This document shows, piece after piece, positions 1 through 24,789 of a stretch of DNA of 64,000 nucleotides. This DNA comes from Hansschlegelia beijingensis (GTDB lineage: Bacteria > Pseudomonadota > Alphaproteobacteria > Rhizobiales > Methylopilaceae): assembly GCF_014196425.1 (NCBI RefSeq), contig NZ_JACIDR010000001.1, positions 310,001 to 374,000 on the forward strand, written 5' to 3'. The stretch's first letter is position 1. Every line of letters begins with the position of its first letter. A model generated the notes under the pieces. The model did not search any database. It had not been told where the DNA came from and saw only the letters and a program-made list of their open reading frames with translations. A program made the translations under genes and the position numbers.

Positions 1-120
1 GTCCATGTCGAGATCGCCGCCACCCACATCACGCAGAACCCGGTCGCGGTGAACATCCAGTGCCACTCCGCCCGGCGCGCCACGGCGACCATCACGCCGG
101 GCGGCATCGCGTTCAGCTGA
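1..120 (+). CDS. Class-I fumarase / L(+)-tartrate dehydratase alpha subunit (3' end only)
   Basis: Only the last 39 codons are in the window; the stop is TGA at 118-120. The reading frame ends with a stretch containing TQNPVAVNIQCHSARRATA, which matches the C-terminus of alpha subunits of iron-sulfur class-I fumarases and tartrate dehydratases. The next gene, 7 bases on, is the matching beta subunit, which supports the call. These heterodimeric enzymes add or remove water across a C4 dicarboxylate double bond using a [4Fe-4S] cluster; the cluster cysteines lie outside the window. The true substrate is not known: sulfolactate genes downstream make a sulfonated analogue possible, but that is inference. 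Confidence 0.8.
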   Translation, partial: VHVEIAATHITQNPVAVNIQCHSARRATATITPGGIAFS

Positions 121-127
121 GGCAGAG

Positions 128-739
128 ATGACCCATCATGTCCTCGACATGCCCGTCGACGAGGCCGCGGTCCGCGCGCTCAGGGTCGGCGACACCGTCA
201 CGCTGCGCCGGACGCTGTTCGGCATCCGCGACGCGACGCTGATCCACATGTTCGACCGCGGCCGCGAGACCCGGCTCGAGCTCGCGGGCCACGCCGTCAT
301 CCACACCGCGCCAAACGTGCGGCGGGTGGAGCCGTCGGAGGCCGCGCCGGTCGGCTATGAGCCGTTCTGCATCGGCACCACCACCTCGATGCGGATGGAG
401 CGCTTCACCCGCCCGCTGATGGAGCGGGAGGGCGTGCGGCTGATCATCGGCAAGGGCGGCATGGGGCCGGGGACGCTGGAGGCCTTCCGCGACCTCGGCG
501 GCGCCTATCTGGCGATCGTCGGCGGGGCCGCGGCGCTGGAGACGACCTGGATCGAGCAGATCGAGGACGTCGACATGGACGACCTTCACCCCGAGAGCCT
601 GTGGCGCTTCAGGATCCGTGACTTCGGCCCGCTGCTGGTCGGCATGGATTCCCACGGCGGCTCGCTCTACGCCAACGTCCGGGACGACGTCGCCAGCCGG
701 CGCGCCGCGGTGCTGGCGAGCATCGGAGCCGGCGAATGA
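128..739 (+). CDS. Class-I fumarase / tartrate dehydratase beta subunit
   Basis: This 203-residue protein is the C-terminal (beta) half of a two-subunit class-I fumarase or tartrate dehydratase. Family motifs visible are GTTTSMRMERF at residues 83-93 and IGKGGMG at 107-113, both of which bind the dicarboxylate in known members. The ATG at 128 follows the alpha subunit by 7 bases. The stop overlaps the ATG of the flavoprotein gene by 4 bases, so translation is probably coupled. The family dehydrates malate, tartrate or similar acids; the exact substrate cannot be read from sequence. Its link to a succinate-dehydrogenase-like flavoprotein and a sulfolactate pathway suggests a C4 acid, perhaps sulfonated. 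Confidence 0.85.
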   Translation: MTHHVLDMPVDEAAVRALRVGDTVTLRRTLFGIRDATLIHMFDRGRETRLELAGHAVIHTAPNVRRVEPSEAAPVGYEPFCIGTTTSMRMERFTRPLMEREGVRLIIGKGGMGPGTLEAFRDLGGAYLAIVGGAAALETTWIEQIEDVDMDDLHPESLWRFRIRDFGPLLVGMDSHGGSLYANVRDDVASRRAAVLASIGAGE

Positions 740-2466
740 CGCCGGCGCTCCGCACGGTCGACACCGACATCCTGATCCTCGGCTCCGGCGGCGCGGGTCT
801 GTTCGCAGCCCTGCACGCCAAGAAGACCGCCCCCGATCTCGAGGTCACGGTCGCGGTGAAGGGCCTGCTCGGCAAGTGCGGCTGCACCCGCATGGTGCAG
901 GGCGGCTACAACGTCGCGCTGGCGCCCGGCGACTCCGTCGAGCGCCACTTCATGGACACGATCGAGGGCGGCAAGTGGCTCAACGACCAGGATCTCGCCT
1001 GGACGCTGGTGACGGAGGCGCAGATCCGCATCCGCGAGCTTGAGAGCGAGCTCGGCTGCTTCTTCGACCGCAACCCTGACGGGACCGTCCACCAGAAGGC
1101 CTTCGCGGGCCAGACCTTCGACCGCACGGTCCACAAGGGCGACCTGACGGGCATCGAGATCATCAACCGCCTGTCCGAGCAGGTCTGGCGCCGCGACGTG
1201 AAGCGGCTCGAGGATCACAGGGCGCTGGAGCTGATCCCCGCCGCGGACGGCTCCGGCCTCGCCGGCGTGCTGATGCTCGACATGCGCTCCGGCGAGCCGC
1301 TGTTCGTGCGCGCCAAGGCCACGCTGCTCGCGACCGGCGGCGGGCCGACCATGTACAAGTACCACACGCCCTCGGGCGACAAGTCGTGCGACGGGCTCGC
1401 CATGGCGCTGCGCGCCGGCCTGCCGCTGCGCGACATGGAGATGGTGCAGTTTCACCCGACCGGGCTGCTCGCGGGTCCCGACACCCGAATGACCGGGACG
1501 GTGCTGGAGGAGGGGCTGCGCGGCGCCGGCGGCTATCTGCTCGACGGCGGCCGCGAGCGCTTCATGCATCTCTACGACCCGCGCAACGAACGCGCGACGC
1601 GCGACATCGTCAGCCGCTCGATCATCCGCCGCATCCGCGACGGCCACGCCACCGAGAATGGCGGCGTCTACATCCAGATGAGCCATCTCGGGCCCGAGAA
1701 GGTCAGGAAAGACTTCAAGGGCATGGTGGAGCGCTGCGCGGATTGCGGTTTCGACCTCGCGGCGGGCCTCGTCGAGGTCATCCCGACGGCGCATTACATG
1801 ATGGGCGGCGTCGCCTTCGGCGGCGACTGCCGGACCGAGCTGCCGCGGCTCTACGCGGCCGGCGAGGACACCGGGGGAGTGCACGGCGCCAACCGGCTCG
1901 GCGGCAACGGTGTCGCGAACTCGACCGTGTTCGGCGGCGTGGCGGGCCGCGCCATGGCGCATGAGGTCGTGCGCGCAGGATCGCGCGCCGACCCGGACCC
2001 CTCCGCCATCGAACAGGGGCTGGCGCGCTGCTTCGGCCCGCTCGGGCGGCCGTCCGGCGAGCTCGGCGCGATCCGCGAAGCGCTCTACGAAACGATGTGG
2101 GCGGACGCCGGCATCCTGCGCGACGCCGCCGGGCTCCAGCGCGCCGAGGTCGCGCTGGCCGGGCTCGCCGAGGCGGTGGCGCGCTCCGGCGCGCCGGACG
2201 GCGACCGCCGCTACAACCTGACCTGGATGGACCGGCTGAACCTCGAGAGCCTGGTCGCCGTCAGCCGCGCGATCTGCGCCGCCGCGCTCGCCCGCACCGA
2301 CAGCCGCGGCGCGCATTTCCGGGAGGATTTTCCGGAGACGTCGGACCTCGCGACCTCGCGCTACACCGTCGTGCGCGAGCGTTCCGGCGCGCTTCAGGTC
2401 GGGACCGAGCCGGTCGTGTTCACCCGCGTCCGGCCCGGCCAGTCGCTGCTCGACGAGGCGGCGTGA
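736..2466 (+). CDS. FAD-binding succinate dehydrogenase / fumarate reductase-like flavoprotein
   Basis: A 576-residue flavoprotein of the SdhA/FrdA/NadB family. The N-terminal dinucleotide-binding glycine motif GSGGAG is at residues 16-21. The family active-site stretch PTAHYMMGG begins at residue 350 with His353. A second FAD-binding stretch, VHGANRLGGN, begins at residue 382. A segment reading RNERATRDIV near residue 284 matches the catalytic arginine region of the family. It has no signal peptide and no iron-sulfur or membrane subunit beside it, so the electron acceptor is unknown. The start codon overlaps the upstream hydratase beta gene. It probably oxidises or reduces a C4 dicarboxylate or an analogue; the pairing with a fumarase-like hydratase makes sequential desaturation and hydration a natural reading. 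Confidence 0.8.
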   Translation: MTPALRTVDTDILILGSGGAGLFAALHAKKTAPDLEVTVAVKGLLGKCGCTRMVQGGYNVALAPGDSVERHFMDTIEGGKWLNDQDLAWTLVTEAQIRIRELESELGCFFDRNPDGTVHQKAFAGQTFDRTVHKGDLTGIEIINRLSEQVWRRDVKRLEDHRALELIPAADGSGLAGVLMLDMRSGEPLFVRAKATLLATGGGPTMYKYHTPSGDKSCDGLAMALRAGLPLRDMEMVQFHPTGLLAGPDTRMTGTVLEEGLRGAGGYLLDGGRERFMHLYDPRNERATRDIVSRSIIRRIRDGHATENGGVYIQMSHLGPEKVRKDFKGMVERCADCGFDLAAGLVEVIPTAHYMMGGVAFGGDCRTELPRLYAAGEDTGGVHGANRLGGNGVANSTVFGGVAGRAMAHEVVRAGSRADPDPSAIEQGLARCFGPLGRPSGELGAIREALYETMWADAGILRDAAGLQRAEVALAGLAEAVARSGAPDGDRRYNLTWMDRLNLESLVAVSRAICAAALARTDSRGAHFREDFPETSDLATSRYTVVRERSGALQVGTEPVVFTRVRPGQSLLDEAA

Positions 2467-2483
2467 GCGTGGAGGCGAACGCC

Positions 2484-4124
2484 ATGAAGTCCCTGCGCGG
2501 CGCCGACATCGTGGCCCGATCGCTCGAGCGGCTCGGGGTCACGCGGATCTTCACGCTGTCCGGCAATCACATCATGCCGATCTTCGACGCGCTGCTCGAG
2601 ACCGGCATCGAGATCGTGCATGTCCGCCAGGAGGCGGCGGCGGTGCACATGGCGGACGCCTGGGGCCGGCTGACCGGCGAGGTCGGGGTCGCGATGGTGA
2701 CCGGCGGGCAGGGCCACTCCAACGCCGCCGCCGCTTTGTTCACCGCCCAGGCGGCGGAATCCCCGCTGCTGCTGCTGTCCGGCCATGCGCCGCTGCGCGA
2801 GCTCGGCCGCGGCGCCTTCCAGGAGATGGCGCAGGCCGACATCGCCCGGCCGATGACCAAGGCCTCCTGGACCTCCGCCTCGCTCGACGCTCTTGGGGAC
2901 GATCTGGCGCTGGCCATGAAGCTGGCGCGCGAGGGCCGACCCGGGCCGGTGCATGTCAGCCTGCCGAGCGACCTGCTCGAGGAAGAGGCCGCCATCGGCG
3001 ACCTCCGCCTGCCGGACCCGGGCGCCGCCCGGCCGGCTCCGGCGCCGGCCGACCCGCATCTCGTCGACTCGGTCGCGCTGCGGCTCACGCAGGCCGAGCG
3101 GCCGCTGATCCTTTGCGGTCCCGCGATGTGCGGCGAGCGCGGCCGGATCGCGATGGAGGCGCTGGAGCAGGCCTCCGGCGTCCCGGTGATCGGCATGGAG
3201 AGCCCGCGCGGGGTCAACGATCCGGGCCTCGGCGCGCTCGGCGAGGTGCTCGGCGAAGCGGACCTCATCCTGCTGCTCGGCAAGCCGCTCGACTTCACGC
3301 TCAAATTCGGCGCCGCGCCCACGGTCGCCGCCGATTGCGGCTTCGTGGCCGTCGATCCCGATCCCTCCCTGTTGCTGCGCGCCGCGCGCGAAAAAGGCGA
3401 CCGGCTGCTGGCCTCCGGGGTCGCCGATCCGTTCGCCTTCATCGCCGCGCTCACGGAGCGGCTGGCGGCCTCGAACGACGCGTCGCGCTGGCGCGAGACG
3501 GTCGCGGCCGCGCTGTCCTATGCCCCGCCGGACTGGGACGACGTCCGCGGCTCGCCCGGACGGCTGCACCCGGTAGAGCTCTGCCGGGAGGTCTCGGCCT
3601 TCCTGTCGCGCCATGCCGGCGGCACGCTGATCTGCGACGGCGGCGAGATCGGCCAATGGCCGCAGGCCCTGGTCCCGGCCAAACGGCGCCTCGTCAACGG
3701 CGTGTCAGGCACGATCGGCGCGTCGATTCCGTTCGCGATCGCGGCCAAGACGCTCTCGCCGGACGCGCCCGTGGTGGCGGTGCTCGGCGACGGCACCTTC
3801 GGTTTTCACATGGCCGAGTTCGACACCGCCGTGCGCTACGGGCTGCCGTTCATCGCGGTCGTCGGCAACGACGCGCGCTGGAACGCCGAGCACCAGATCC
3901 AGCTGCGGAACTATGGTCCGGAGCGCGCCCGCCACTGCGACCTGCTGCCGTCCCGCTACGACCAGGTCGCGGTCGCGCTCGGGGGCTTCGGCGCGCTCGC
4001 CACCACGCCGGCCGAACTGTCCGAGGCGCTCGAGGAGGCGCACCGCAGCGGCAGGCCAGCCTGCATCAACGTGATGATCGACGGCGCGCCCGCGCCGGCG
4101 ATCCGGCGACCCAAAGCGGCCTGA
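2484..4124 (+). CDS. Thiamine diphosphate-dependent enzyme, acetolactate synthase/decarboxylase family
   Basis: A 546-residue ThDP enzyme with the usual three domains: pyrimidine-binding (about 1-170), central (about 190-320) and pyrophosphate-binding (about 360-530). The conserved glutamate that activates the cofactor is E50, in VRQE. The Mg/ThDP motif starts at G435-D436-G437 and ends near N462. The ATG at 2484 is preferred because GGAGG lies 8 bases upstream; an in-frame GTG at 2463 that overlaps the previous stop is the alternative. The overall type is a 2-oxoacid decarboxylase or carboligase. It is neither a split ComDE sulfopyruvate decarboxylase nor clearly Xsc, so a role on sulfopyruvate or another 2-oxo sulfonate is only suggested by its neighbours. 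Confidence 0.8.
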   Translation: MKSLRGADIVARSLERLGVTRIFTLSGNHIMPIFDALLETGIEIVHVRQEAAAVHMADAWGRLTGEVGVAMVTGGQGHSNAAAALFTAQAAESPLLLLSGHAPLRELGRGAFQEMAQADIARPMTKASWTSASLDALGDDLALAMKLAREGRPGPVHVSLPSDLLEEEAAIGDLRLPDPGAARPAPAPADPHLVDSVALRLTQAERPLILCGPAMCGERGRIAMEALEQASGVPVIGMESPRGVNDPGLGALGEVLGEADLILLLGKPLDFTLKFGAAPTVAADCGFVAVDPDPSLLLRAAREKGDRLLASGVADPFAFIAALTERLAASNDASRWRETVAAALSYAPPDWDDVRGSPGRLHPVELCREVSAFLSRHAGGTLICDGGEIGQWPQALVPAKRRLVNGVSGTIGASIPFAIAAKTLSPDAPVVAVLGDGTFGFHMAEFDTAVRYGLPFIAVVGNDARWNAEHQIQLRNYGPERARHCDLLPSRYDQVAVALGGFGALATTPAELSEALEEAHRSGRPACINVMIDGAPAPAIRRPKAA

Positions 4125-4180
4125 GGCCCGGTCGCGACAAAGAGACTGCCGACAAGAGCAGGCGACTGGGAGGGACGGGC

Positions 4181-5185
4181 ATGCTGGGTAGGGTTTTGTT
4201 GGTCGCCGCGACGATGGTCGCAGCGGCCGCGCTGACGGCCGCGCACGCGGAGGTCGATCAGGTCAGGATCGCGCGGCAGCCGAGCCTCGGCCATCTGCCG
4301 CTGATGATCATGGAGGAGCGGAAACTCCTCGAGAAGAACGCGGCCGCGCGCGGCGTGCCCGATCTCAAGGTGACCTACGCGACGCTCGCCGGCGGCGCCG
4401 CGATGAACGACGCGCTGCTGTCGGGCGCGATCCAGTTCGCGGCCGGCGGCGTGCCGCCGCTCGTCCTGCTGTGGTCGAAGACCGCCGGATCGGGCAATCC
4501 GGTGAAGGCGGTCACCGCCATGAACTCGATGCCGCTGCTGCTGAACACGACCAATCCCGAGGTGAAGTCGCTGAAGGACTTCACCTCGCGCGACAAGATC
4601 GCGCTGCCGGCCGTGAAGGTCTCGATCCAGGCGATGTTCCTGCAGATGGCGGCCGAGAAGGAGCTCGGTCCGGATCGCCGCAACGAGCTCGACAAGCTGA
4701 CGGTGACGCTGTCGCACCCCGACGGCATGGCGGCGCTGCTGTCGCGCAACGAGGTCACGGCGCATTTCACCGCGGCGCCGATCCAGGAGCTCGAGCTGAA
4801 GCAGGCCGGGGTCCGCACCGTGCTGAACAGCTTCGACGTCATGGGCGGCCCCTGCACCTTCAACGTCATCTGGGCGACGTCGCGGTTCGTCGAGCAGAAC
4901 CCGAAGGTCTACGAGGCCTTCGTGGCCTCCGTCGATGAAGCCGTCGGCGTCATCAACGCCGACAAGAAGGCGGCCGCCGAGGCCTATGTGCGTCTCGCCA
5001 AGGACTCGAGCGACCTCGCGCTGATCGAGCAGATCCTGAACGACCCGCAGGTGACGTTCACGACCACGCCCCAGAACATCCAGAAATACGTGGACTTCAT
5101 GGCCCGCACCAAGGCGATCGGCCGCAGCGCCGACAGCTGGAAGGAGCTGTTCTTCGAAAACGCGCATTCCAAGCAGGGCGGCTGA
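4181..5185 (+). CDS. ABC transporter periplasmic binding protein, NitT/TauT (SsuA-like) type
   Basis: A 334-residue secreted binding protein. Residues 1-23 form a Sec signal peptide ending AHA before EVDQ. The mature part has the SsuA/TauA/NMT1 pattern, with a segment reading IARQPSLGHLPLMIMEERKL near its start. A GGGAGGGA ribosome site lies just before the ATG. It sits 56 bases after the ThDP gene on the same strand. No permease or ATPase lies nearby, so it either works with components outside the window or borrows another system. Given the operon, an organosulfonate or carboxysulfonate ligand is likely, but nothing in the sequence fixes it. Confidence 0.8.
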   Translation: MLGRVLLVAATMVAAAALTAAHAEVDQVRIARQPSLGHLPLMIMEERKLLEKNAAARGVPDLKVTYATLAGGAAMNDALLSGAIQFAAGGVPPLVLLWSKTAGSGNPVKAVTAMNSMPLLLNTTNPEVKSLKDFTSRDKIALPAVKVSIQAMFLQMAAEKELGPDRRNELDKLTVTLSHPDGMAALLSRNEVTAHFTAAPIQELELKQAGVRTVLNSFDVMGGPCTFNVIWATSRFVEQNPKVYEAFVASVDEAVGVINADKKAAAEAYVRLAKDSSDLALIEQILNDPQVTFTTTPQNIQKYVDFMARTKAIGRSADSWKELFFENAHSKQGG

Positions 5186-5207
5186 CGTCGCCCTGGCGCG
5201 AACGTCG

Positions 5208-5241
5208 TTGACCAAAAACATGTCATATGTCTTATACAAGA
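5208..5241 (+). promoter_or_regulatory. Candidate suyAB promoter with overlapping dyad
   Basis: In the gap between the binding-protein gene and suyA there is a TTGACC box at 5208-5213. A TTATAC/TATACA box follows at 5232-5238, giving an 18-19 base spacer. The -10 region is covered by the inverted repeat TCTTATACAAGA at 5230-5241, which resembles TNGTATACNA-type operators of GntR-family regulators. This suggests that suyAB and the genes after it can be transcribed independently of the upstream genes. Confidence 0.45.
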
Positions 5242-5296
5242 TATGTCCGAGGCAGCCGCTAAGGGCGCGCCCGGCAGCAGGGAGGATCAGGAGCCG

Positions 5297-5608
5297 ATGA
5301 CCGAGCAAGCCAACGGGGACGGCCGCAACCCGCATGTCCTCGCCCATAGTCCGAAGGACAATGTCGCGGTCGCGGTCATCGAGGGGCTGAAGGCCGACAC
5401 CGACGCGTTCGGCGTGGTGACGGAGAACGACAGCACGTTCCGCGTCCATGTGAAGAGCGACATACCGATCGGCCACAAGGTCGCGCTGACCGATCTCAAG
5501 GCCGGCGACACCGCGATCAAGTATGGTCAGGACGTCGGAAAGATCACCGCGGACGTCGCCAAGGGCGAACACGTCCACACCCACAACATGAAGACAAAGC
5601 GCTGGTGA
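5297..5608 (+). CDS. suyA: (2R)-3-sulfolactate sulfo-lyase subunit alpha
   Basis: Small subunit of the sulfo-lyase that splits (R)-sulfolactate into pyruvate and sulfite. The 103-residue protein is a SAF-domain protein of the altronate dehydratase N-terminal family. It carries the segment [16 protein letters not shown] and a late GEHVHTHNM, typical of UxaA/SuyA small subunits. The ATG at 5297 is chosen because GGAGG and AGGAG lie just upstream; an upstream in-frame ATG at 5243 would add 18 residues but overlaps the putative operator. The gene ends 10 bases before suyB. Assignment to SuyA rather than an altronate or galactarate dehydratase rests on the partner gene and the two sulfolactate dehydrogenases that follow. 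Confidence 0.85.
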
Positions 5609-5618
5609 GGGCGGACTG

Positions 5619-6887
5619 ATGGCTGACGTCATGATCTCCAATCAGAGCCCGTTCGTCGGCGGCGCTCCGGACCAATTCTACACCCCGGCGCTGCCGAGCG
5701 CGCGCGCGTCGGTCGACGCCGCCAAGGCCACCTTCATGGGCTGGCGGCGCGAGAACGGCCGCGTCGGCGTGCGGAACCACGTCGTGCTGCTGCCGCTCGA
5801 CGATCTGTCCAACGCCGCCTGCGAGGCGGTGGCGAACAACATCAAGGGCACGATGGCGCTGCCCCACGCCTATGGCCGTCTGCAGTTCGGCGAGGATCTC
5901 GCGATCCATTTCCGCACGCTGATCGGCATCGGCTCGAACCCGAACGTCGCGGCCGTGATCGTGATCGGGATCGAGGAGCAGTGGACCAACCGGGTCGTCG
6001 AAGGCATCGCCAAGACCGGCAAGCCGGTCGTGGGCTTCGGCATCGAGCAGCACGGCGACATCGCGACGATCGCCCGGGCGAGCTACCAGGCGAAGAAGTT
6101 CCTGCAGTGGGCGACCGAACTGCCGCGCGAGGAGTGCTCGATCACCGAGCTCTGGATCTCGACCAAATGCGGCGAGTCCGACACCACGACGGGCCTGTCG
6201 TCCTGCCCGACGGTCGGCAACATGTACGACAAGCTGATCCCGCACGGCATCTATGGCGTGTTCGGCGAAACCTCCGAGATCACGGGCGCGGAGCACCTCT
6301 GCAAGGAGCGCGCGGCGAGCCCGGAGGTCGCCGAGAAGTGGTACAAGATGTGGAAGTCCTATCAGGACGACGTCATCGAGGCCCACAAGACCGACGACCT
6401 GTCGGACAGCCAGCCCACCAAGGGCAACATCGAGGGCGGCCTGACCACCATCGAGGAGAAGGCGCTCGGCAACCTCGAGAAGATCGGCCACGAGTGTAAG
6501 TACATCGACGCGCTCGAGCCGGCCGAGACGCCCGCCAAGGGCCCGGGCCTGTACTACATGGACACCTCGTCCGCCGCGGCCGAATGCGTCACCCTGATGG
6601 CCGCCGCCGGCTATGTCGTGCACACCTTCCCGACCGGCCAGGGCAACGTCATCGGCAACCCGATCGTCCCGGTGATCAAGATCTCCGGCAATCCGCGCAC
6701 GCTGCGGACGATGGGCGAGCATATCGACGTGGACGTCACCGGCGTGCTCAGGCGCGACATGACGATCCCGGAAGCCGGCGACGCGCTGATCGACATGATC
6801 GTGCGCACCGCGAACGGCCGCCTCACGGCCGCCGAGGCCCTTGGTCACCGCGAATTCGTGATGACCAAGCTCTACCGCAGCGCCTGA
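5619..6887 (+). CDS. suyB: (2R)-3-sulfolactate sulfo-lyase subunit beta
   Basis: Large catalytic subunit (422 residues) of the UxaA/GarD lyase family that pairs with SuyA to release sulfite from (R)-sulfolactate. The family opening [15 protein letters not shown] begins near residue 42. Later cysteine-bearing stretches [20 protein letters not shown] and SSAAAECVT fit the family's metal site. In sugar-acid dehydratases the large domain eliminates water; in SuyB the leaving group is sulfite. The arrangement suyA-suyB-slcC-comC is the known bifurcated sulfolactate pathway, which gives good confidence. The enzyme should be cytoplasmic and its sulfite must be oxidised or exported; candidate systems lie elsewhere in the window. 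Confidence 0.88.
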
Positions 6888-6892
6888 CGCCT

Positions 6893-6925
6893 CGCCCCTC
6901 CCTGCGGCCGACGCGGGGAGGGGCG
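6893..6925. repeat. Hairpin in the suyB-slcC gap
   Basis: A perfect 10-base inverted repeat (6893-6902 with 6916-6925) encloses a 13-base loop in the 132-base gap after suyB. No T-run follows, so it is not a clear intrinsic terminator. Its CCCTCCC/GGGAGGG core resembles the palindromic sequence in the 11.1-11.7 kb repeat block, so it may be a short dispersed palindrome or an attenuating structure between suyB and slcC. Confidence 0.5.
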
Positions 6926-7019
6926 ACCGTCGGCCCTCCGACATCCTGACGCCCGAAAGCCCTGACGCGAGCCGAGGCCTCGGAGCACGCAGTCGACCTC
7001 CGCTCAGCAGGCGCAGCGC

Positions 7020-7964
7020 ATGCCCAAGATCGTCATCCCGGAGTTCATGGACGAGGCCGCGATCCGCAGCGCCTTCGTGGGCTTCGACGTCGTCTATGAT
7101 CCCGCCCTCGTGGACCAGCCTGACCGGCTCGCCGCCGAGGCGTCCGACGCCGACGCGCTGATCGTCCGCAACCGGACGCAGGTGCGCGGCGCGCTGCTCG
7201 AGGGCGCGGCGCGCCTGCGTTGCGTGGGGCGGCTCGGCGTCGGGCTCGACAACATCGATCTCGCGGCCTGCAAGACGCGCGGGATCGCGGTCTATCCGGC
7301 GACCGGCGCGAACGACGTGTCCGTCGCCGAATACGTCATCGGAACCGCGATGCTGCTGCTGCGCGGCGCCTATCGGGCGAGCGACGAGATGGCGGCCGGA
7401 ACCTGGCCGCGCGACGCCTTTTCGGGAGGCCGCGAGATCTCCGGCAAGCGGCTCGGCCTCATCGGCTACGGCTCGATCGCGCGGGAGACGGCGCGCCGGG
7501 CGGCGGCGCTCGGCATGTCGGTCGCGGCCCACGATCCCTATCTGGCGGAAGACGACGCGCATTGGCGGCCGTCCTGGGGGCGGGTCGAGCCGAAGCCGCT
7601 CGACGACCTGCTGCGCGTCTCCGACGTCGTCTCGCTGCATGTGCCGCTGACCGAGGGCACGCGGGGGATGATCGGCGCCGAAGAAATCGCGGCGATGCAG
7701 GACGACGCCATCCTGATCAACGCCGCCCGCGGCGGCGTGGTCGACGAGGCCGCGGTGGCGGACGCGCTGCGGGCCGGCCGGCTCGGAGGCGCGGCGCTCG
7801 ACGTGTTCGACGCTGAGCCGCTGAAGGGCGCCGCGGCCGAACGCTTCGCCGGCTGCCCGAACCTGGTGCTGACGCCGCACATCGCCGGCGTCACGGCGGA
7901 ATCGAACGTCCGCGTCTCGCGCGTCACGGCCGAAGCCGTCGCGCAGCACCTGAGGGATCTCTGA
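7020..7964 (+). CDS. slcC: (S)-sulfolactate dehydrogenase
   Basis: A 314-residue D-isomer-specific 2-hydroxyacid dehydrogenase. The NAD-binding motif GLIGYGS is at residues 146-152. The catalytic Arg (NAARGG), Glu (FDAEPL) and His (LTPHIAG) blocks of the family are all present. In the bifurcated sulfolactate pathway SlcC oxidises (S)-sulfolactate to 3-sulfopyruvate with NAD. The gene lies between suyB and a ComC-type dehydrogenase, the arrangement known from sulfolactate users, which is the main reason for this call over a generic hydroxyacid dehydrogenase. It ends 2 bases before comC. Confidence 0.82.
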   Translation: MPKIVIPEFMDEAAIRSAFVGFDVVYDPALVDQPDRLAAEASDADALIVRNRTQVRGALLEGAARLRCVGRLGVGLDNIDLAACKTRGIAVYPATGANDVSVAEYVIGTAMLLLRGAYRASDEMAAGTWPRDAFSGGREISGKRLGLIGYGSIARETARRAAALGMSVAAHDPYLAEDDAHWRPSWGRVEPKPLDDLLRVSDVVSLHVPLTEGTRGMIGAEEIAAMQDDAILINAARGGVVDEAAVADALRAGRLGGAALDVFDAEPLKGAAAERFAGCPNLVLTPHIAGVTAESNVRVSRVTAEAVAQHLRDL

Positions 7965-7966
7965 CC

Positions 7967-8971
7967 ATGGCCAGGCTCTCGCTCGCCGAGGCGCGGGATC
8001 TCGTCGCGGCCGCGCTGACCGCCAACGGCGCGTCGCAGCCGAACGCCGCGAGCGTCGCCCGCGCGCTGGTCGGCGCAGAGGCTGACGGGTTGAAGGGCCA
8101 CGGCCTCTCCCGGGTCGCGACCTATGTGGCGCAGCTGCGCGCCGGAAAGGCGCTCGGCGACGTCGCCCCCGTCGCGACCCGACCTCGGCCGGGGGTCCTG
8201 GCGATCGACGCCGCGCATGGCTTCGCCTATCCGGCGCTCGACCTCGCCGTGGACGCGCTGCCGGCGATCGCGCGCGAGCAGGGGATCGCCGCGGCCTCCA
8301 TCAGCCGGTCGCACCATTGCGGCGCTGCCGGACAGCCGGTCGAGGCGCTCGCGGATGCGGGGCTCGTCGCCATGCTGTTCGCCAACACGCCGGCCGCCAT
8401 GGCGCCCTGGGGCGGCCGCACGGCGGTGCTCGGCACCAACCCGATCGCCTTCGCGTGCCCGCTGCCGGGCGAGGCGCCGATCGTGGTCGACCTGTCGCTG
8501 TCGCGCGTCGCCCGCGGCAACATCATGGCCGCCAGGCAGCGCGGCGAGCCCATCCCGGAAGGCTGGGCGCTCGACGCCGAAGGGCGGCCGACGACCGATC
8601 CCGCCGCCGCGCTCAAGGGCACCATGGCGCCGCTCGGCGACGCCAAGGGCGTCGCGCTCGCGCTGATGGTCGAGCTGCTCGCCGCCGGGCTCACGGGCGC
8701 GCTCTACGCGGGCGAGGCCTCCTCCTTCCTCGACGCGGAGGGCGGTCCGCCCGGCACCGGCCAGCTGATCATCGCCTTCGATCCCGCGGCCTTCTCGGCC
8801 GGGGCCCCTGAGCGCTTCGCGGCGCTGGCGCGCGCCATCGACGGCCAGGAGGGCGCGCGGCTGCCCGGCGCCCGCCGGCTCGCCAACCGGGAGCGCGCGG
8901 CCCGGGAGGGGCTCGAGGCGCCCGACGCGCTGATCGCCGAAATCGGATCGCTCGCCGGCCGCAACGGCTGA
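7967..8971 (+). CDS. comC: (R)-sulfolactate dehydrogenase (ComC type)
   Basis: A 334-residue member of the malate/L-lactate (LDH2) dehydrogenase family, which has its own NAD(P) fold. The family active-site block reading SRSHHCGAAG is present near residue 110. In the sulfolactate pathway ComC reduces 3-sulfopyruvate to (R)-sulfolactate, the isomer that SuyAB cleaves. With SlcC it would therefore act as a racemase, making both isomers usable. It follows slcC by 2 bases and is probably co-translated. On its own the family also includes malate and ureidoglycolate dehydrogenases; the neighbours decide the call. Confidence 0.82.
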   Translation: MARLSLAEARDLVAAALTANGASQPNAASVARALVGAEADGLKGHGLSRVATYVAQLRAGKALGDVAPVATRPRPGVLAIDAAHGFAYPALDLAVDALPAIAREQGIAAASISRSHHCGAAGQPVEALADAGLVAMLFANTPAAMAPWGGRTAVLGTNPIAFACPLPGEAPIVVDLSLSRVARGNIMAARQRGEPIPEGWALDAEGRPTTDPAAALKGTMAPLGDAKGVALALMVELLAAGLTGALYAGEASSFLDAEGGPPGTGQLIIAFDPAAFSAGAPERFAALARAIDGQEGARLPGARRLANRERAAREGLEAPDALIAEIGSLAGRNG

Positions 8972-9292
8972 CCCGCTGTCGAGCGATAGATCATCTGGAG
9001 GAGCCGTAAGGGCGCAGCTATCGCCGCATAGGAACTAACGTCCTGCTGCGGCTGCGCAATCTTTCGGATCGGCGGCGGCCGTGTGATAGAAGGCGATCAC
9101 GGATCCGTCACCGGACGATCCGTCGACGCCCCGCCGCAAGCCGGCCGCCGCTCTCGCGGCCTGACTGACACCGCCACGCGAAGATCGCCTCATGCCGCCG
9201 ATCCTGCCCCGCTCTCCGGCGCAAAGCTCCGCCCGCGACGGGCGCGCTGCGGCCGGCGGGCCTGCGCGGGCCGCCTGCGCCGGGGGCATGCG
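8972..9292. other. Intergenic gap between comC and sulP with one large hairpin
   Basis: No credible gene is seen in these 321 bases. The clearest structure is an imperfect three-part stem at 9012-9057. GCGCAG pairs with CTGCGC, inside it CCGCA with TGCGG, and inside that AGGA(A)C with GTCCT around a TAAC loop. The run AATCTTT follows. It could end the sulfolactate transcript or be a structured leader for the SulP gene. Confidence 0.4.
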
Positions 9293-11110
9293 GTGATCCG
9301 GCTCACCTCCGGCTGGTGGCGCCAGGTCAACCGCAACACGGCGCGCGCCGACGCGCTCGCGGGGCTGCTCGGCGCGCTGCTGGTGCTGCCGCAGGGCATC
9401 GCCTTCGCGACCCTGGCCGGACTTCCGCCGCAATACGGCCTCTACAGCGCGGTCGTGCCGACCATCGTGGCCGCCGTCTTCGGCTCGAGCCTGCACGTCG
9501 CCTCCGGCCCCACCAATGCGAACTCGCTCGCGCTGTTCGCGGCGATCAGCCCGCTCGCGGCGGCCGGCAGCCCCGAATATGTCACGCTCGTGCTGGCCGT
9601 CACCGTGATGGTCGGCGTGATCCAGTTCGCGGTCGGCGCGTCGCGGCTCGGCGGCCTCACGGACTTCCTGTCGCCCTCCGTCCTGCTCGGCTTCATGAGC
9701 GGGGCGGCGATGCTGATCGCCTGCTACGCGCTGCCCGACGCCGCCGGCCTCCCGGCCCACGCCGGTCGCGGACCGTTCGCGGCCGTGGCCTCGGTGTTCG
9801 CCGAGTGGCGCATGATCAATCCCGGCGCGGTGGCGGTCGCGCTGGCGACGCTCGCCGTCACCCTCGGCGCCCGCGCGATCTCGCGGCGGCTGCCCTTCAT
9901 GCTGTTCGGCCTCGCGGCGGGGTGGATCGTCTCGGAGGCGCTGACCTTCTGGGGCGGGCCCGAGGCCGTCGAGGTGATCGGCGCGATCCCGACCCCGATC
10001 CCGCCCCTCAGCATGCCGCTGCCGCCGCTCGACAGCCTGCCGCATCTGGTGCCGATCGCCGGGGCGCTGGCGGTGATCGCGCTCGGCCAGTCGGTGTCGA
10101 TCGCGAAGGCGGTCGCGGCGCGCTCCGGACAGCGGATCGACGTCAACCGTGAGTTCATCGGGCAGGGCCTGTCCAACATCGCGGGCGGCTTCTTCTCGTC
10201 CTATCTCTCCTGCGGCTCGCTCAACCGGTCGCTGCCGAACCTCGAGGCGGGCGCGCGGACGCCGCTCGCGGCCGTCATGTCGGCGGGCTTTCTGGTCGTC
10301 ATGGTGGCGGTCGCCGCGCCGATCCTGCGGGACATCCCCACCGCGGCGATCGCGGCGCTGCTGCTCTACACGGCCTGGAGCCTGCTCGATCTCGGCCGCT
10401 TCGCCGAGACCGCGAAGCTCAGCCGGATCGAGTTCGCGGTCGCGGCGACGACCTTCGTGGCGATGCTGTTCCTGCCGTTCCACGTCGCGATCCTGATCGG
10501 CGTCGCGTTCTCGCTGGTCGCCTATCTGCACCGGACGTCGCACCCCAACATCCTCGCGCTCGCGCCGGACCGCGACACCGAGGTCGGCCGCTTCACGCCG
10601 CTGTCCCACCTCCCGCAGGCGCGGGAATGCCCGCAGCTCAAGCTGCTGCGCATCGAAGGCGCGGCCTATTTCGGCGCCGCCCCCTATGTGGGCGATCGCC
10701 TGCACGACCTCCGGACCCAGTCGCCCACGCAGAAGCACCTGCTGGTCATGGCGCGCAGCATGAACTTCATCGACCTCGCCGGCGCGGAACTCTGGGAGAC
10801 CGAACTCAAGCGGCGCAGGCTGGTGGGCGGCGACCTTTACTTCCATCGGCCCCGGCAGGCCGTTCTGGACCTCTGGCGCAAGACCGGTTTTCTGAAGCGG
10901 CTCGGGGAGGACCACATATTCCACTCGAAGGCGGACGCGATCGGCGCGATCTTCCGCAAGATGGATCCGAAGATCTGCGCGGCCTGCCAGGCGCGGATCT
11001 TCAGGGAATGCGGCGAAGGCTCGGCGACCTCGTTCTTCGACGCCAAGGCCGCCGGCAGCTACCGGGACGACGAGGCGGCGCTCGAGACCGCCACGCCCCC
11101 GACCCGCTGA
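9293..11110 (+). CDS. SulP family inorganic anion transporter with STAS domain
   Basis: A 605-residue SulP/SLC26 permease. The membrane part (about 15-430) carries the usual early segment LPQGIAFATLAGLPPQYGLY. A STAS domain occupies roughly 445-545. The GTG at 9293 is chosen because it places the first membrane helix near the N-terminus; longer in-frame starts add arginine-rich sequence unlike the family. After STAS there is a cysteine cluster CX2CX7C (C562, C565, C573), also found in the second SulP at 33.2 kb. Family members move sulfate, sulfite-like anions, bicarbonate or carboxylates. Next to a sulfite-releasing pathway, sulfate or sulfite transport is likely, but the direction cannot be told. 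Confidence 0.85.
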   Translation: MIRLTSGWWRQVNRNTARADALAGLLGALLVLPQGIAFATLAGLPPQYGLYSAVVPTIVAAVFGSSLHVASGPTNANSLALFAAISPLAAAGSPEYVTLVLAVTVMVGVIQFAVGASRLGGLTDFLSPSVLLGFMSGAAMLIACYALPDAAGLPAHAGRGPFAAVASVFAEWRMINPGAVAVALATLAVTLGARAISRRLPFMLFGLAAGWIVSEALTFWGGPEAVEVIGAIPTPIPPLSMPLPPLDSLPHLVPIAGALAVIALGQSVSIAKAVAARSGQRIDVNREFIGQGLSNIAGGFFSSYLSCGSLNRSLPNLEAGARTPLAAVMSAGFLVVMVAVAAPILRDIPTAAIAALLLYTAWSLLDLGRFAETAKLSRIEFAVAATTFVAMLFLPFHVAILIGVAFSLVAYLHRTSHPNILALAPDRDTEVGRFTPLSHLPQARECPQLKLLRIEGAAYFGAAPYVGDRLHDLRTQSPTQKHLLVMARSMNFIDLAGAELWETELKRRRLVGGDLYFHRPRQAVLDLWRKTGFLKRLGEDHIFHSKADAIGAIFRKMDPKICAACQARIFRECGEGSATSFFDAKAAGSYRDDEAALETATPPTR

Positions 11111-11680
11111 AAGGCGCTCTTTCCCCACGCTGCGCGCGAGGAGGGAGAAGAGGCGTCGCGCGGCGGCGAAGGGCGCTCTTTCCCTCCCTCGCAGAGGGGA
11201 GGGTGGACGGCGAAGCCGGCCGGGTGGGGTGGTTTCAGGACTGAGCTCTACGCCCGAGGCCCCACCCGACCCTTCGCTGCGCGAAGGGTCACCCTCCCCA
11301 CGCTGCGCGTGAGGAGGGAGAAGAGGCGGCGCGGCTTGGCGAAGGGCGCCCTTTCCCTCCCTCGCAGAGGGGAGGGTGGACGGGCGAAGCCCGGGGGGGG
11401 TCTCAGGACGGAGCTCTACGCCGAAGACCCCACCCGACCTCGGCCTGTCGGCCGAGGCCACCCTCCCCACGGCTCACGCCGTGAGGAGGGAGAAGAGGCG
11501 GCGCGGCTCGGCGAAGGGCGCTCTTTCCCTCCCTCGCGAGACGCGGAGGGTGGACGGCGAAGCCCGGCCGGGTGGGGTGGTCTCAGGACGGAGCTCTACG
11601 CCCGAAGACCCCACCCGACCTCGGCCTGTCGGCCGAGGCCACCCTCCCCACGGCTTCGCCGCGAGGAGGGAGAAGAAGAG
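11111..11680. repeat. Tandem palindromic intergenic repeat, three units of about 175 bases
   Basis: Three tandem copies of a GC-rich unit occupy 11147-11319, 11320-11491 and 11492-11671. A deleted partial copy lies at 11111-11146. Each unit holds CCCTCCCTCGC...GAGGG, a GGTGGGGT...ACCCCACC palindrome around GAGCTCTACGCC, and CCTTCGCTGCGCGAAGG- or CCTCGGCC-type palindromes. The copies differ by small changes. Open frames across this block are repeats read as protein and have no family match. Confidence 0.75.
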
Positions 11681-11742
11681 GTCCGCGAAGGCGCGCGTGG
11701 AGGAGCCGGCGGCGGAGGAACCTGCTCCCTGGGCGGGGGCGC

Positions 11743-11773
11743 AAAAAAAGGCCGGCGGGGATCGCGCCGGCCT
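11743..11773 (-). terminator. Intrinsic terminator of the amidohydrolase gene
   Basis: Read on the minus strand, the hairpin AGGCCGGCG...CGCCGGCCT (11749-11773) is followed by a run of seven T (11743-11749). It lies 24 bases past the stop of the minus-strand amidohydrolase gene, as expected for a rho-independent terminator. Confidence 0.8.
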
Positions 11774-11796
11774 TTGGCTGCAGAGGGAGAAAGCGG

Positions 11797-12699
11797 TCAG
11801 GCCGCCTTCTTGCTCGCCTTGCCGGCGAGACCGAGGCCGAGCAGCCGGTCGGCGTTCTTCCAGGTGGCCTTCTCCCAGGCTTCGGGGGACAGGCCGAGCT
11901 GGCGGAAGTCCTCGACGCCCTGCTTCATCGGCCGGAACGGATAGGAGCTGCCGAACAGGAACTGGTCCGCCATGAAGTGGTTGGCGGCCTCGACGTAGAG
12001 ATTGCCGCCCGGGCAGAAGGTGTACATGTCCGGCGAAACGAAGACGTTCTCGTTGCGGAACGCGACGGTCACGATCTCCCGGACGTTCGGGTAGAAGCCG
12101 TGGCAGCAGACGATCGGCAGCTTCGGGAAGGTCTTGGCGACGTTGTCGACCGCGTAGGGGTCGTTGAGGCGCAGGTCGGGCGTGGTGGGGCCGGACATCA
12201 CGAAGGCCGGGACGCCGAGCTGCTCGCAGACCTCGTAAAGCGGCATCAGCCGGTAGTCGTCGGCGCGCAGCGGGGTGGCGTAGAAGCCGGCGTCGAGGTT
12301 GAGTCCCTTCATGCCGAGCTTCTTGATCGCGCGGGTCGCCTCCGCGACGGCCGCCTCGCGGCCGAGCTCGATCGGATCGACGGAGGCGATCGGCACCAGG
12401 CGCTTGCGGTTCGCGGCCGCGACGGCGGCCAGATCGTCGTTCGAGACGCGCACGCCCGGCACGCTGCGGGCGACCATCACGGCGACGCTGATGCCGGCGT
12501 CGTCCATCTCGGAGACCACGCCGTCGGCGTCCTTGGCGCGGGTGAAGTGTTCGATGTCGCGGCCGCCGACGCGCTTGTTGAGCCACTTCACGACTTCGAA
12601 CTGCGGCGTATCCGGCTGCGCGCCGAAGAAGGCGTGAAGAAACGCCGGCCGGCTTCGCATGTCGACCACGGGCGTATTCGTCGGATAGGCCTCGGACAT
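11797..12699 (-). CDS. Amidohydrolase-family metal-dependent hydrolase (COG2159 type)
   Basis: A 300-residue TIM-barrel hydrolase or decarboxylase of the amidohydrolase-2 family. It begins with VVDMRSRP, where the usual first metal-binding motif DxHxH is replaced, so the metal site is not typical. Later stretches IVCCHGFYPNV and DQFLFGSSYPF match the family's middle histidine and its closing D/GSDYP block. Members decarboxylate or hydrolyse small aromatic or carboxylic acids. It stands alone on the minus strand with its own terminator and no clear link to the sulfur genes. The altered first motif means activity should not be assumed. Confidence 0.7.
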   Translation of the reverse strand: MSEAYPTNTPVVDMRSRPAFLHAFFGAQPDTPQFEVVKWLNKRVGGRDIEHFTRAKDADGVVSEMDDAGISVAVMVARSVPGVRVSNDDLAAVAAANRKRLVPIASVDPIELGREAAVAEATRAIKKLGMKGLNLDAGFYATPLRADDYRLMPLYEVCEQLGVPAFVMSGPTTPDLRLNDPYAVDNVAKTFPKLPIVCCHGFYPNVREIVTVAFRNENVFVSPDMYTFCPGGNLYVEAANHFMADQFLFGSSYPFRPMKQGVEDFRQLGLSPEAWEKATWKNADRLLGLGLAGKASKKAA

Positions 12700-15078: not shown

Positions 15079-15834
15079 ATGGATGAGCTTGCACTGGCTG
15101 TGGGCGTCATCGGCCTGACCGCCGGCGTGATGATCGGCTGCGTCGGGGTGGGCGGCGTGATCGTGGTGCCGGCGCTGGTCTACGGCCTCGGACTGAGGAT
15201 CCAGGACGCCATCGCCTCCGCGATGATGGGCTACATCCTGACCGGTCTGATCGGCACCATGGTCTACGCCCGGGCCGGGTCGATCCGCTGGTCGCTCGCC
15301 GGGTGGATCGCCGTCGGGGCGGCTCCGGGCGCTCTCGCGGGCGCCTGGGCCAGCAATGGGGTCGATCCGCGGCTGCTCGAGCTGCTGGTCGGCGCGTTGG
15401 CGCTGTGGTCGGGGGCGAACAGCCTGTTCGGCGGGGGAGGCCATGCCGAACGGGACCGCCCGCTGCGGCCGCTCGAACTCGCCGCCGTGGGCGCGCTGAC
15501 CGGGGTTCTGTCGGCGATGACCGGCACCGGAGGCCCTCTGGTGCTGGTGCCGCTCCTGATCTGGCTGCGGCTGCCGCCGCTCGCCGCCGTCGGTTTGAGC
15601 CAGGCCGCGCAGATCCCGATCGCCGCGCTCGCGACCGTCGGGAACTTCGCCTATGGCGATCCCGACGTCAGCATCGGGCTCGTGCTGGGGCTCAGCCTCG
15701 CGGCCGGGACCTGGGGCGGCGCGAAGCTCGCCCATGCGCTCTCGCGCGAGGCGCTCGGGCGGGTGGCTTCGACCCTTCTGGTGGTGGTGGGCGTGCTGAT
15801 CCTGACACGGCTCGGCCTCAGGCAGTTCGCCTGA
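15079..15834 (+). CDS. Sulfite exporter TauE/SafE family membrane protein
   Basis: A 251-residue integral membrane protein with about seven to eight hydrophobic helices in two similar halves, as in TauE/SafE. The repeated glycine-rich motifs are visible near VGVGGVIVVPALV (about residue 23) and MTGTGGPLVLVP (about residue 148). Family members export sulfite, sulfoacetate or other small sulfur anions. It diverges from a LysR gene and converges on msmD (42 bases between stops). Its placement beside methanesulfonate monooxygenase, which releases sulfite in the cytoplasm, supports a sulfite export role. Confidence 0.82.
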   Translation: MDELALAVGVIGLTAGVMIGCVGVGGVIVVPALVYGLGLRIQDAIASAMMGYILTGLIGTMVYARAGSIRWSLAGWIAVGAAPGALAGAWASNGVDPRLLELLVGALALWSGANSLFGGGGHAERDRPLRPLELAAVGALTGVLSAMTGTGGPLVLVPLLIWLRLPPLAAVGLSQAAQIPIAALATVGNFAYGDPDVSIGLVLGLSLAAGTWGGAKLAHALSREALGRVASTLLVVVGVLILTRLGLRQFA

Positions 15835-15876: not shown

Positions 15877-16977
15877 TCAGCCGAACTTGTCGTAGCGGAT
15901 CGCGGAGGGGCTGAGCCCGCCCTGCGTGATGAGCGTGCGCAGCGCGCCGTCCACCATCGGCGGCGGTCCGGCCACATAGGCCATCAGGTCGTCATAGCGG
16001 CCCGCCATCGCCCGGCTCGCCACTTCGTGAACCATTCCGCCTGCGAGCTTCACGCCGGGATGGTCCGGATGATCCTCCCGCGAGGGTTCCTCGTGCGACA
16101 GCGCCAGGGTCACCTCGAGATTGCCGTTCGCCTCGGCGACGCGCCGGGCGAACTCCTCCAGGTAGAAGCCGTCCGCCAGCGTACGGACGCCGAAGAAGAC
16201 GTAGCCCTTGCGCGTGCGGAAATGATCGGACTCGGCGGCCGAGGCGAGGATCGACATCATCCCGGCGATGCCCGAGCCGCCGGCGATCATCAGGAGGTTC
16301 TTGTTCTCGTCGGCGTGGAAGGTGGCCCGGCCGAGCGGCCCGAACACCTTCACCTCGGCGCCTTCCGCGCCCGGCCCGAACAGCCAGTCGCCGAAGCCGC
16401 CGCTCGGCTTGCGCTTGACGACCAGCTCGATCCGCTCGGCGGAGCGCGTGAAGTTCACCATGGAGTAGGCGCGGGCGCCCTGCAGGCCCGGAGCCTCCAC
16501 CACCACGAACTGACCGGCGTCGAACTCCATCGGCGTCGACAGGGCGACCTCGAAGCTGATGACGTCGCTGGTGAGCCTGCGGATGTTCTCCATCAGCCCC
16601 GTCCGATAGGCGGGGATTTGGTGGCGCGCCGGCTTCTCGGCGACCTCCGCCGGCACGCGCAGCACGCAGTCGCCGAGCGCCCGGGTCTGGCACAGCAGGA
16701 TGTCGCCCTTGTCGCGCTTGAGGCGCGCGGCGCCCGGCGCCTCCTCCCAGGCGACGTCGACCTCCCCCGTCATCACCCGCGCGCGGCACGTGCCGCAGGT
16801 TCCGGTCGCGCATTCGTGCGGAAGGGTCAGGCCGTGCCTCAGCCCTGCATAGAGCAGGGTTTCGCCCGGCGCGCAGTCGAAACCGAAGACGCCGGACTTC
16901 GTCTCGACCGAGACGGCGCAATGCTCGTGCGCGAGCGGCTCCGCCGCGAGGTTCTCAGCTCTTGCTAAAGAAGTCAT
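15877..16977 (-). CDS. msmD: Methanesulfonate monooxygenase reductase component
   Basis: A 366-residue NADH:ferredoxin oxidoreductase. The N-terminal plant-type [2Fe-2S] domain has C56-X4-C61-X2-C64-X31-C96. It is followed by an FAD domain (RAYSM near residue 200) and an NAD domain ([10 protein letters not shown]). It passes electrons from NADH to the Rieske ferredoxin MsmC and so to the oxygenase MsmAB. It overlaps msmC by 23 bases at the end of the operon msmA-msmB-msmC-msmD. Reductases of this shape serve many oxygenases; the assignment comes from the MsmA signature in the same operon. Confidence 0.88.
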
Positions 16978-17326: not shown

Positions 17327-17432
17327 CAGGGCGCCCTTTTCTTGGGTGAGGTCGGCGGCCGAGCGTCGATCGGGGCGAACCTCCGACGCCCGGCGCGACC
17401 GCCCGCCACGGAGTCCGGCGGCGGACTCACGA

Positions 17433-17978: not shown

Positions 17979-18112
17979 CTTGCTCTCGTTTCCTCGCGCG
18001 GTGGAGGGCCTGATCGGCCAGGCGCAGCTGCGCCGACCGGCCTCTTCTCGTGTTCTTGCAGAAGAATAAGGAGGCCCGGCGGGAGAGGGGCGACCCGCCA
18101 GGCCTCCGACCG

Positions 18113-24566: not shown

Positions 24567-24588
24567 CGGGGATCGGCCGAGGCGCGCG

Positions 24589-24783: not shown

Positions 24784-24789
24784 CGGCGA

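Follow-up and report, generated by a model that had tools for sequence, protein, structure and literature searches.

The gene run

The first 8971 bases of a 64,000-nucleotide stretch of Hansschlegelia beijingensis DNA (contig NZ_JACIDR010000001.1, positions 310,001 to 374,000; this whole stretch is called the window) hold genes resembling class I fumarase and succinate dehydrogenase (SDH) directly before homologues of the sulfolactate genes suyAB, slcC and comC. An earlier note, made from the sequence alone, had described fumarase-like alpha and beta genes, an SDH-like flavoprotein, a thiamine diphosphate (ThDP) enzyme and a binding protein in this position on the same strand, which is borne out by the coordinates. 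The four genes that it grouped as a set are present, but the fumarase alpha gene lies mostly outside the window and the run is larger, with a GntR regulator, an ATP-binding cassette (ABC) transporter, SdhB, SdhC, SdhD and TauE encoded upstream. The whole run from GntR through ComC stands on the plus strand and is operon-like, and the window opens inside it.

The upstream bases belong to a stretch designated L002, where a window position equals the L002 position minus 12000. In L002 coordinates the run starts with the GntR regulator (5106-5936), followed by an ABC ATPase (6156-7031), an ABC permease (7024-7920), the first copy of an SsuA-family binding protein (8048-9055), an SdhB-type iron-sulfur protein recognised by family profiles (9068-9817), the two Sdh_cyt membrane proteins SdhC and SdhD (9814-10143 and 10140-10499) and a TauE/SafE exporter (10496-11236; PF01925, E 4.3e-23). 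The class I fumarase alpha gene (FumA, 11248-12120) starts about 750 bases upstream of the window and has its last 120 bases inside it (window 1-120). Its product matches the Pfam family Fumerase (PF05681) at E 1.3e-85 and the fumarate hydratase model NF004885 with 291.7 bits at a cut-off of 276. The beta subunit of class I fumarase/tartrate dehydratase type (FumB, 128-739; Fumerase_C PF05683, E 6.9e-29), for which we propose a role as beta subunit of a sulfoacrylate hydratase, stays below the listed NCBIfam cut-offs; its nearest solved sequences are 7xky_B, a two-subunit fumarase, and the TtdB-like 5dni. No other protein of the host genome (3.66 Mb, 12 contigs) matches PF05683 at E<=0.001. 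The SdhA/TfrA-like flavoprotein (736-2466) belongs to a distinct clade and is the proposed 3-sulfopropanoate dehydrogenase, and the gene of an acetolactate synthase/2-hydroxyacyl-CoA lyase-like ThDP enzyme follows (2463-4124, with GTG at 2463 or ATG at 2484 as start). With the chosen start codons, neighbouring genes from SdhB through the ThDP enzyme overlap by 4 bp or lie at most 11 bp apart. Since SdhB and the two Sdh_cyt proteins are encoded so close to the flavoprotein, they would combine with it into a complete SDH-like complex.

The second SsuA-family substrate-binding protein (4181-5185; TIGR01728 at E 2.5e-22, below its cut-off; NMT1_2) precedes a SuyA-like small subunit of sulfolactate sulfo-lyase (5243-5608; SAF domain) and a SuyB-like large subunit of the galactarate/altronate dehydratase family (5619-6887). 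The run closes with an SlcC-like D-2-hydroxyacid dehydrogenase, by homology a (S)-sulfolactate dehydrogenase (7020-7964), and a ComC-like Ldh_2 dehydrogenase, the putative (R)-sulfolactate dehydrogenase (7967-8971), whose best NCBIfam match is the L-sulfolactate dehydrogenase model NF040650 with 178 bits at a cut-off of 500. The names SuyAB, SlcC and ComC are given by homology and context, the scores being under the cut-offs of the matched NCBIfam models. Judged by homology, the quartet of the sulfolactate pathway is complete and adjoining, and TauE provides a sulfite-export candidate in the same run.

Linkage to sulfonate genes in other genomes

Linkage in relatives, which had been set beforehand as a test, was assessed in 80 loci, the best 80 of 584 confirmed in a scan of named genomes. 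Genes were tallied with identity and coverage thresholds of our own setting (for instance SuyB 55%, ThDP enzyme 45%). Loci cut by contig ends scored as misses, and the comparison of gene order used a laxer coverage cut; some open reading frames (ORFs) of the related loci were chosen by our own rule, and antisense or over-long ORFs remain among them. In the fetched stretches SuyB occurs at 34 of the 80 loci, SuyA at 35, SlcC at 30 and ComC at 39. One or more of SuyA, SuyB and Xsc are encoded at 41/80 loci and any sulfonate marker at 55/80; for the 50 loci that span at least 15 kb these numbers are 32 and 37. Gene order and strand vary among the SuyB-linked loci. When SuyB linkage is mapped on the tree of the flavoproteins, 12 gains or losses are required, of which at least seven are forced by well-supported branches (97 rows, 36 with SuyB and 23 long rows without; 38 unlabelled rows were not counted). 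The genome search for the same gene set beside suyAB, which the earlier note had suggested, found all eight enzyme genes (FumA, FumB, SdhA, ThDP, SuyA, SuyB, SlcC and ComC) at 7/80 loci, but the full window order including the binding protein at just four of the 80, all from Methylobacterium.

Other sulfonate genes take the place of SuyAB at some loci. At four alphaproteobacterial loci (L052, L064, L088 and L102) an Xsc-type gene adjoins a Pta-type gene instead of SuyAB; the Xsc of L088 scores over its cut-off, and those of the other three are 85-94% identical to it. In genome G059 the run ends with the FumB ORF 3 bp from a convergent set of HpsN-like, ComD, ComE and SlcD-like genes. ComD and ComE of this set are both over their cut-offs, whereas HpsN and SlcD are names given here to proteins that NCBIfam calls hisD and L-lactate dehydrogenase type. 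In the excerpts of PMC4334477 hpsN and slcD are listed close together in Ruegeria, and fumarate hydratase is mentioned once, as the class II FumC.

Of 17 plasmid matches, 13 regions were examined, and 11 of these were annotated. TauE is found in nine of the 11, and a gene for handling sulfite or sulfonates (TauE, YeiH or sulfate exporter, sulfite dehydrogenase, or a UxaA pair) in ten. The plasmids of Paracoccus versutus and P. ferrooxidans carry SDH subunits, an FAD-binding protein (FAD, flavin adenine dinucleotide), fumarate hydratases, a YeiH exporter and TauE, along with annotated genes for a hydroxyacid dehydrogenase and an oxidoreductase of the Ldh family. As far as excerpts of PMC12421959 go, a similar cluster may have been induced by a sulfosugar in the proteome reported there, in Paracoccus wurundjeri (cluster 3, MDP0926751-0926761); it is presumably the same as the P. 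versutus/P. ferrooxidans-type cluster. Two haloarchaeal plasmids, from Natribaculum and Haloarcula, encode the flavoprotein and SdhB next to TauE, a UxaA pair and a protein of the argininosuccinate lyase type. Sulfite-dehydrogenase-type genes were found at 7 of 103 loci, and the single one tested scored over the SoxC cut-off. On plasmid pMNOD01 of Methylobacterium nodulans (L136) the SDH-fumarase run is preceded by a SoxC-type sulfite dehydrogenase and a cytochrome c (3499-5326) and followed by a further molybdopterin oxidoreductase, again with a cytochrome c (17235-18783). A Sulfitobacter plasmid (L134) holds a gene annotated as 3-sulfinopropanoyl-CoA desulfinase (24478-25650) about 11 kb from the flavoprotein.

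Co-occurrence was counted over whole genomes in two samples. The first comprised 398 genomes across the phylum (flavoprotein at E<=1e-150, SuyB at E<=1e-100, Xsc by TIGR03457), with the flavoprotein in 11, SuyB in 15, Xsc in 27 and either SuyB or Xsc in 37. All 11 flavoprotein genomes had SuyB or Xsc, as did 26 of the 387 others (Fisher test 1.1e-11 without the host genome). In the second sample, 61 relatives with orthologues defined by a flavoprotein identity of at least 61%, the orthologue was present in 13; SuyB or Xsc accompanied it in 13/13 and occurred in 11/48 of the remainder (Fisher test 9.7e-7 without the host genome), and Xsc was found in all 13. The positives of the two samples have the host genome and G059 in common, and their negatives overlap too. 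Pooled, they comprise 21 distinct positive genomes besides the host, 21/21 with SuyB or Xsc. The control, BenC, is a catabolic gene about as rare as the flavoprotein; it was found in 26/398 genomes, only two of which had SuyB or Xsc, and thus showed no link.

Chance neighbourhood was rejected because of the SuyB linkage at 34/80 loci, the seven or more tree changes, the co-occurrence in two samples and the null result of the BenC control. That the SDH/fumarase-like module serves sulfonate metabolism is in our judgement highly probable.

The flavoprotein clade and its putative hydratases

The module shares with SDH and fumarate reductase (SdhABCD, FrdA, TfrA) the flavoprotein, the iron-sulfur SdhB and two Sdh_cyt subunits, and its flavoprotein keeps the catalytic Arg and the C1-carboxylate residues. 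Nevertheless, it is set apart from canonical SDH by an identity of only about 35%, its own group in the tree, a Thr to Glu exchange with an insert, a His to Cys exchange and its linkage to sulfonate genes. The canonical SdhA of the host, 35% identical to it, is encoded on another contig, and the host genome also encodes a FumC that scores over its cut-off. Among the matches listed, the closest named relative of the flavoprotein is from Hansschlegelia zhihuaiae (87%). Thirty-one NCBIfam models matched, and the flavoprotein stays under the cut-offs of all 25 shown, including those for SDH, fumarate reductase, TfrA and NadB; the top scores were 499 for TfrA (cut-off 718) and 420 for sdhA_frdA_Gneg (cut-off 567). 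In a tree of 107 rows its group separates from canonical SdhA and NadB with a Shimodaira-Hasegawa-like approximate likelihood ratio (SH-aLRT) support of 99 at a point where long branches meet.

The substrate pocket differs from that of SDH at one end. Glu258 occupies the position matching Thr254 of E. coli SdhA, which we take to be a C4-carboxylate residue, in 91/91 aligned clade members. Just before it lies a six-residue insert with Arg251 in 90 of the 91 and Lys in one. Moreover, all 91 have Cys50 in place of the His that binds FAD covalently in canonical SDH. In contrast, His240, Arg289, His353 and Arg387 are kept in 91/91; they match H242, R286, H354 and R399 of E. coli SdhA, presumably the first-carboxylate end and the catalytic Arg. 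On the same assumption, the changed residues lie at the pocket end for the second carboxylate of succinate, whereas the catalytic Arg and the end that takes the first carboxylate are unaltered. A pocket that is altered at just one end would suit a substrate with one carboxylate replaced. The same motif is present in 10 of 13 plasmid-borne relatives, one of them with Lys, and in two haloarchaeal flavoproteins and one from Rhodococcus the insert is shorter by one residue, with EEG and the Arg or Lys retained. The hosts of the clade comprise alpha-, beta- and gammaproteobacteria, a Rhodococcus and haloarchaea.

Going by their family names, the SDH and fumarase genes could be spare citric-acid-cycle or tartrate enzymes that are co-induced with sulfonate use and turn over no sulfonate. 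However, a canonical SdhA and FumC are encoded elsewhere in the genome, the changes in pocket and flavin site are fixed in all 91 members, and SuyB or Xsc accompanies the flavoprotein in every positive genome of both samples, so that we consider this explanation improbable.

The fumarase-like pair has the alpha and beta domains of two-subunit class I fumarase and L-tartrate dehydratase, with 7xky as nearest solved sequence. It differs from class I fumarase by a beta subunit under the model cut-offs, by its sulfonate context and by being swapped elsewhere for a diverged pair or a haloarchaeal lyase. The diverged pair, 27-36% identical, belongs to a subclade. In the two haloarchaeal plasmid regions no class I fumarase is annotated, and a lyase of the fumarase/aspartase superfamily, annotated as argininosuccinate lyase, takes its place beside the flavoprotein and TauE (L133 10299-11801, L135 10296-11798). 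This lyase may hydrate sulfoacrylate and not act as ArgH, although the one of L133 scores over the argH cut-off. In bacterial coenzyme M synthesis an XcbC-type enzyme of the aspartase/fumarase superfamily reportedly converts phosphosulfolactate to sulfoacrylate. The haloarchaeal lyase reaches 260 bits with the XcbC model NF052535, under the cut-off of 575, and scores higher, 323, with that for argininosuccinate lyase. If it is a hydratase, three hydratase kinds stand beside one flavoprotein clade; therefore, the step seems conserved whereas the enzyme does not. At two loci (L120 11889-12803 in G441 and L121 7130-8044 in G439) a protein of the homocysteine methyltransferase family, tested as such in L120, is encoded between the alpha and beta hydratase genes.

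A proposed route for 3-sulfopropanoate

Our preferred reading, which we hold to be somewhat better than an even bet, is that the run encodes a pathway reserved for 3-sulfopropanoate, in which the citric-acid-cycle steps from succinate over fumarate to malate recur with sulfonates. The ABC transporter would import 3-sulfopropanoate, and the flavoprotein with SdhB, SdhC and SdhD would remove two hydrogens to form 3-sulfoacrylate and pass the electrons to quinone. The fumarase-like pair would then hydrate 3-sulfoacrylate to 3-sulfolactate, SlcC and ComC would interconvert the sulfolactate enantiomers via sulfopyruvate, and SuyAB would split (R)-sulfolactate into pyruvate and sulfite, the latter being exported by TauE. 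We infer the substrate, direction, stereochemistry, co-transcription and transporter role. As desaturase and hydratase recur beside genes for sulfolactate, sulfopyruvate and sulfoacetaldehyde, sulfolactate is their likely product. Since each sulfonate from 3-sulfopropanoate through sulfoacrylate to 3-sulfolactate has its isostere in succinate, fumarate and malate, respectively, the proposal would explain both the recruitment of SDH and fumarase and the one-ended change of the pocket. The lower part has the same four genes as the known sulfolactate pathway, whose homologues excerpts of PMC12421959 describe as a racemase plus a lyase, but here the feed would come from a desaturase and hydratase and not from sulfolactaldehyde, dihydroxypropanesulfonate or cysteate.

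Several observations weigh against this proposal. No sulfonate marker was found at 13 of the 50 long loci (15 kb and above), and one of the 11 annotated plasmid regions, that of Sulfitobacter S190, is without a sulfonate or sulfite gene. SuyB taken alone is present in just 5/11 positive genomes of the first sample and 10/13 of the second, and it lies on a different contig from the flavoprotein in G197, G332 and G308; the desulfonase of marker-free loci may therefore sit elsewhere in the genome. The Fisher tests treat related genomes as independent. Besides, the haloarchaeal UxaA pair is just 32-37% identical to SuyAB of the window, and the score of 323 for the lyase of L133 exceeds the cut-off for true argininosuccinate lyase, 279.5. 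Enzymes that could make 3-sulfopropanoate are rarely linked: an aldehyde dehydrogenase was found at 6/103 loci, one of them weak (28-30%), and a class III aminotransferase at 3/103. In the pocket itself, a Glu facing a sulfonate is electrostatically odd and was unexpected, and going by the alignment the loss of the flavin-linking His in all 91 members speaks against easy oxidation.

Comparable changes in E. coli FrdA are said to spoil succinate oxidation and spare fumarate reduction. The Cys could hold FAD covalently, or the enzyme could run in the reducing direction. In the latter case the module would work in reverse, from sulfolactate over sulfoacrylate to 3-sulfopropanoate, as an electron sink, much as in the fumarate reductase variants that reportedly only reduce. 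Several host genera of the clade are presumably aerobes, which does not suit such a sink, and the clusters encode ABC-type importers and sulfite exporters. The cluster described as induced in excerpts of PMC12421959 was seen on a substrate that yields sulfolactate, which would suit the reverse direction. With SuyB or Xsc in every positive genome, we give this reversal very little credence.

The earlier note had proposed that the genes funnel a four-carbon (C4) sulfonate such as sulfosuccinate into the sulfolactate pathway. A sulfonate-dedicated desaturase and hydratase feeding the sulfolactate/sulfopyruvate pathway agrees with the co-occurrence and the varied linkage, but a C4 substrate appears less likely than 3-sulfopropanoate. 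On the C4 route the complex would form sulfofumarate and the hydratase hydroxysulfosuccinate, followed by oxidation by SlcC or ComC and loss of CO2 to sulfopyruvate. The same gene facts fit this scheme, the altered C4 end of the pocket could take a bulkier substrate, and tricarboxylate-type transporters stand beside several clusters; besides, there are published papers on dispersants that contain sulfosuccinate surfactants. Nevertheless, an additional oxidation and decarboxylation are needed, whereas 3-sulfopropanoate and its products are direct isosteres and reach the adjoining genes without these steps, for which reason we favour it. The SlcD-like and ComDE genes of G059 fit a sulfolactate product directly, and so does the Natribaculum region, where no SlcC- or ComC-type gene is annotated in an incomplete gene table. 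Sulfosuccinate is mainly man-made. Such an origin sits poorly with the breadth of the clade, from proteobacteria of three classes and Rhodococcus to haloarchaea, and sulfosuccinate as the substrate seems to us unlikely.

The ThDP enzyme, which the earlier note had counted as a member of the set, is present here but looks, from its distribution in sequenced loci, like an accessory and not a constant part. It occurs at 23/80 loci, 14 of these with a desulfonase, is not tied to Xsc, and was not found at E<=1e-80 in two genomes of the same genus (G001 and G008) that retain the flavoprotein. Its best scores are with acetolactate synthase and 2-hydroxyacyl-CoA lyase models, and it perhaps acts on sulfopyruvate. 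The ComE model TIGR03846 has no match in the host genome at E<=1e-20, and at this threshold ComE was not found in 6 of 22 flavoprotein-positive genomes (G000, G001, G008, G033, G197 and G432). Three of these six, G000, G197 and G432, have the ThDP enzyme, and in G432 Xsc was not found. The other three genomes with the ThDP enzyme have ComE-type matches, over the cut-off in G391 and below it in G041 and G049. Another sulfonate might be the substrate if it were first processed by the ThDP enzyme or by the amidohydrolase of some clusters. An Amidohydro_2 family at least 61% identical to the protein of L136 occurs at 4/103 loci, L136 counted, and has a distant relative in the window, and the ThDP enzyme is present at the loci named above. 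Yet 57/80 loci, many with SuyAB, lack the latter at the set threshold and the amidohydrolase family was found at only these four loci, so that another sulfonate is doubtful as the substrate and carries little weight with us.

Further genes surround the run. The Amidohydro_2 protein of the window (11797-12699, minus strand) is 36-41% identical to the amidohydrolases that adjoin the SDH-fumarase run of L116 and that of L118. A SulP sulfate permease with a STAS domain follows comC directly (9083-11110, plus strand); it was dropped as a part of the pathway because it was assigned only in L051 among the 80 related loci. From 15079 onward the genes are possibly another sulfonate or aromatic cluster, with a second TauE/SafE-family protein (15079-15834, plus strand; PF01925), a BenC-like reductase below its cut-off (15880-16977, minus strand), a Rieske oxygenase (18116-19357, minus strand) and an NMT1-type binding protein with permeases from 19643.

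According to excerpts of PMC11489063, Enterococcus gilvus forms 3-sulfopropanoate from sulfoquinovose, a plant sulfosugar, and other bacteria produce it from homotaurine; Bilophila wadsworthia uses it, and its bacterial degradation had not been reported before, a thesis apart. That thesis, by J. Mayer, is credited with a route in Roseovarius nubinhibens from 3-sulfopropanoate over sulfoacrylate to sulfolactate. The passage names no genes or enzymes, so that the likeness to our proposal lies in the shared metabolites alone. The degradation of 3-sulfopropanoate calls for investigation according to excerpts of PMC9594981, and the mechanism in Bilophila is called unclear in those of PMC12890257. 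Searches of open-licence full texts found no gene set for 3-sulfopropanoate degradation, and no relevant paper on sulfosuccinate enzymes came up in them. The statement of the earlier note that no pathway with this gene set had been described agrees with these texts, but the route in the thesis, as cited in PMC11489063, precedes ours at the level of metabolites. What is new is the combination of known enzyme families with a known lower pathway, for which no gene-level description was found.

Related gene sets recur across many bacteria and in some archaea, and they probably serve to degrade a naturally occurring sulfonate for which we know of no degradation genes. Whether bacteria and haloarchaea share a sulfonate arc appears evenly balanced to us: in this arc 3-sulfopropanoate would be oxidised by a dehydrogenase of the complex II type whose C4 pocket is rebuilt and whose unusual flavin site is perhaps Cys-linked, fumarase-like hydratases would be interchangeable, and the exits would be SuyAB, or sulfopyruvate and sulfoacetaldehyde by way of ComDE and Xsc. 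The EEG pocket motif and its insert offer a marker for re-reading genes annotated as 'FAD-binding protein' or 'fumarate hydratase', and the gene set provides testable candidates for each step of 3-sulfopropanoate degradation. If the proposal is true, it would fill a gap as an aerobic sink for the 3-sulfopropanoate that arises from sulfoquinovose, dihydroxypropanesulfonate and homotaurine. It would also mean that an enzyme of the complex II family has been recruited to a sulfonate, and it would suggest a pathway that reaches the haloarchaea.

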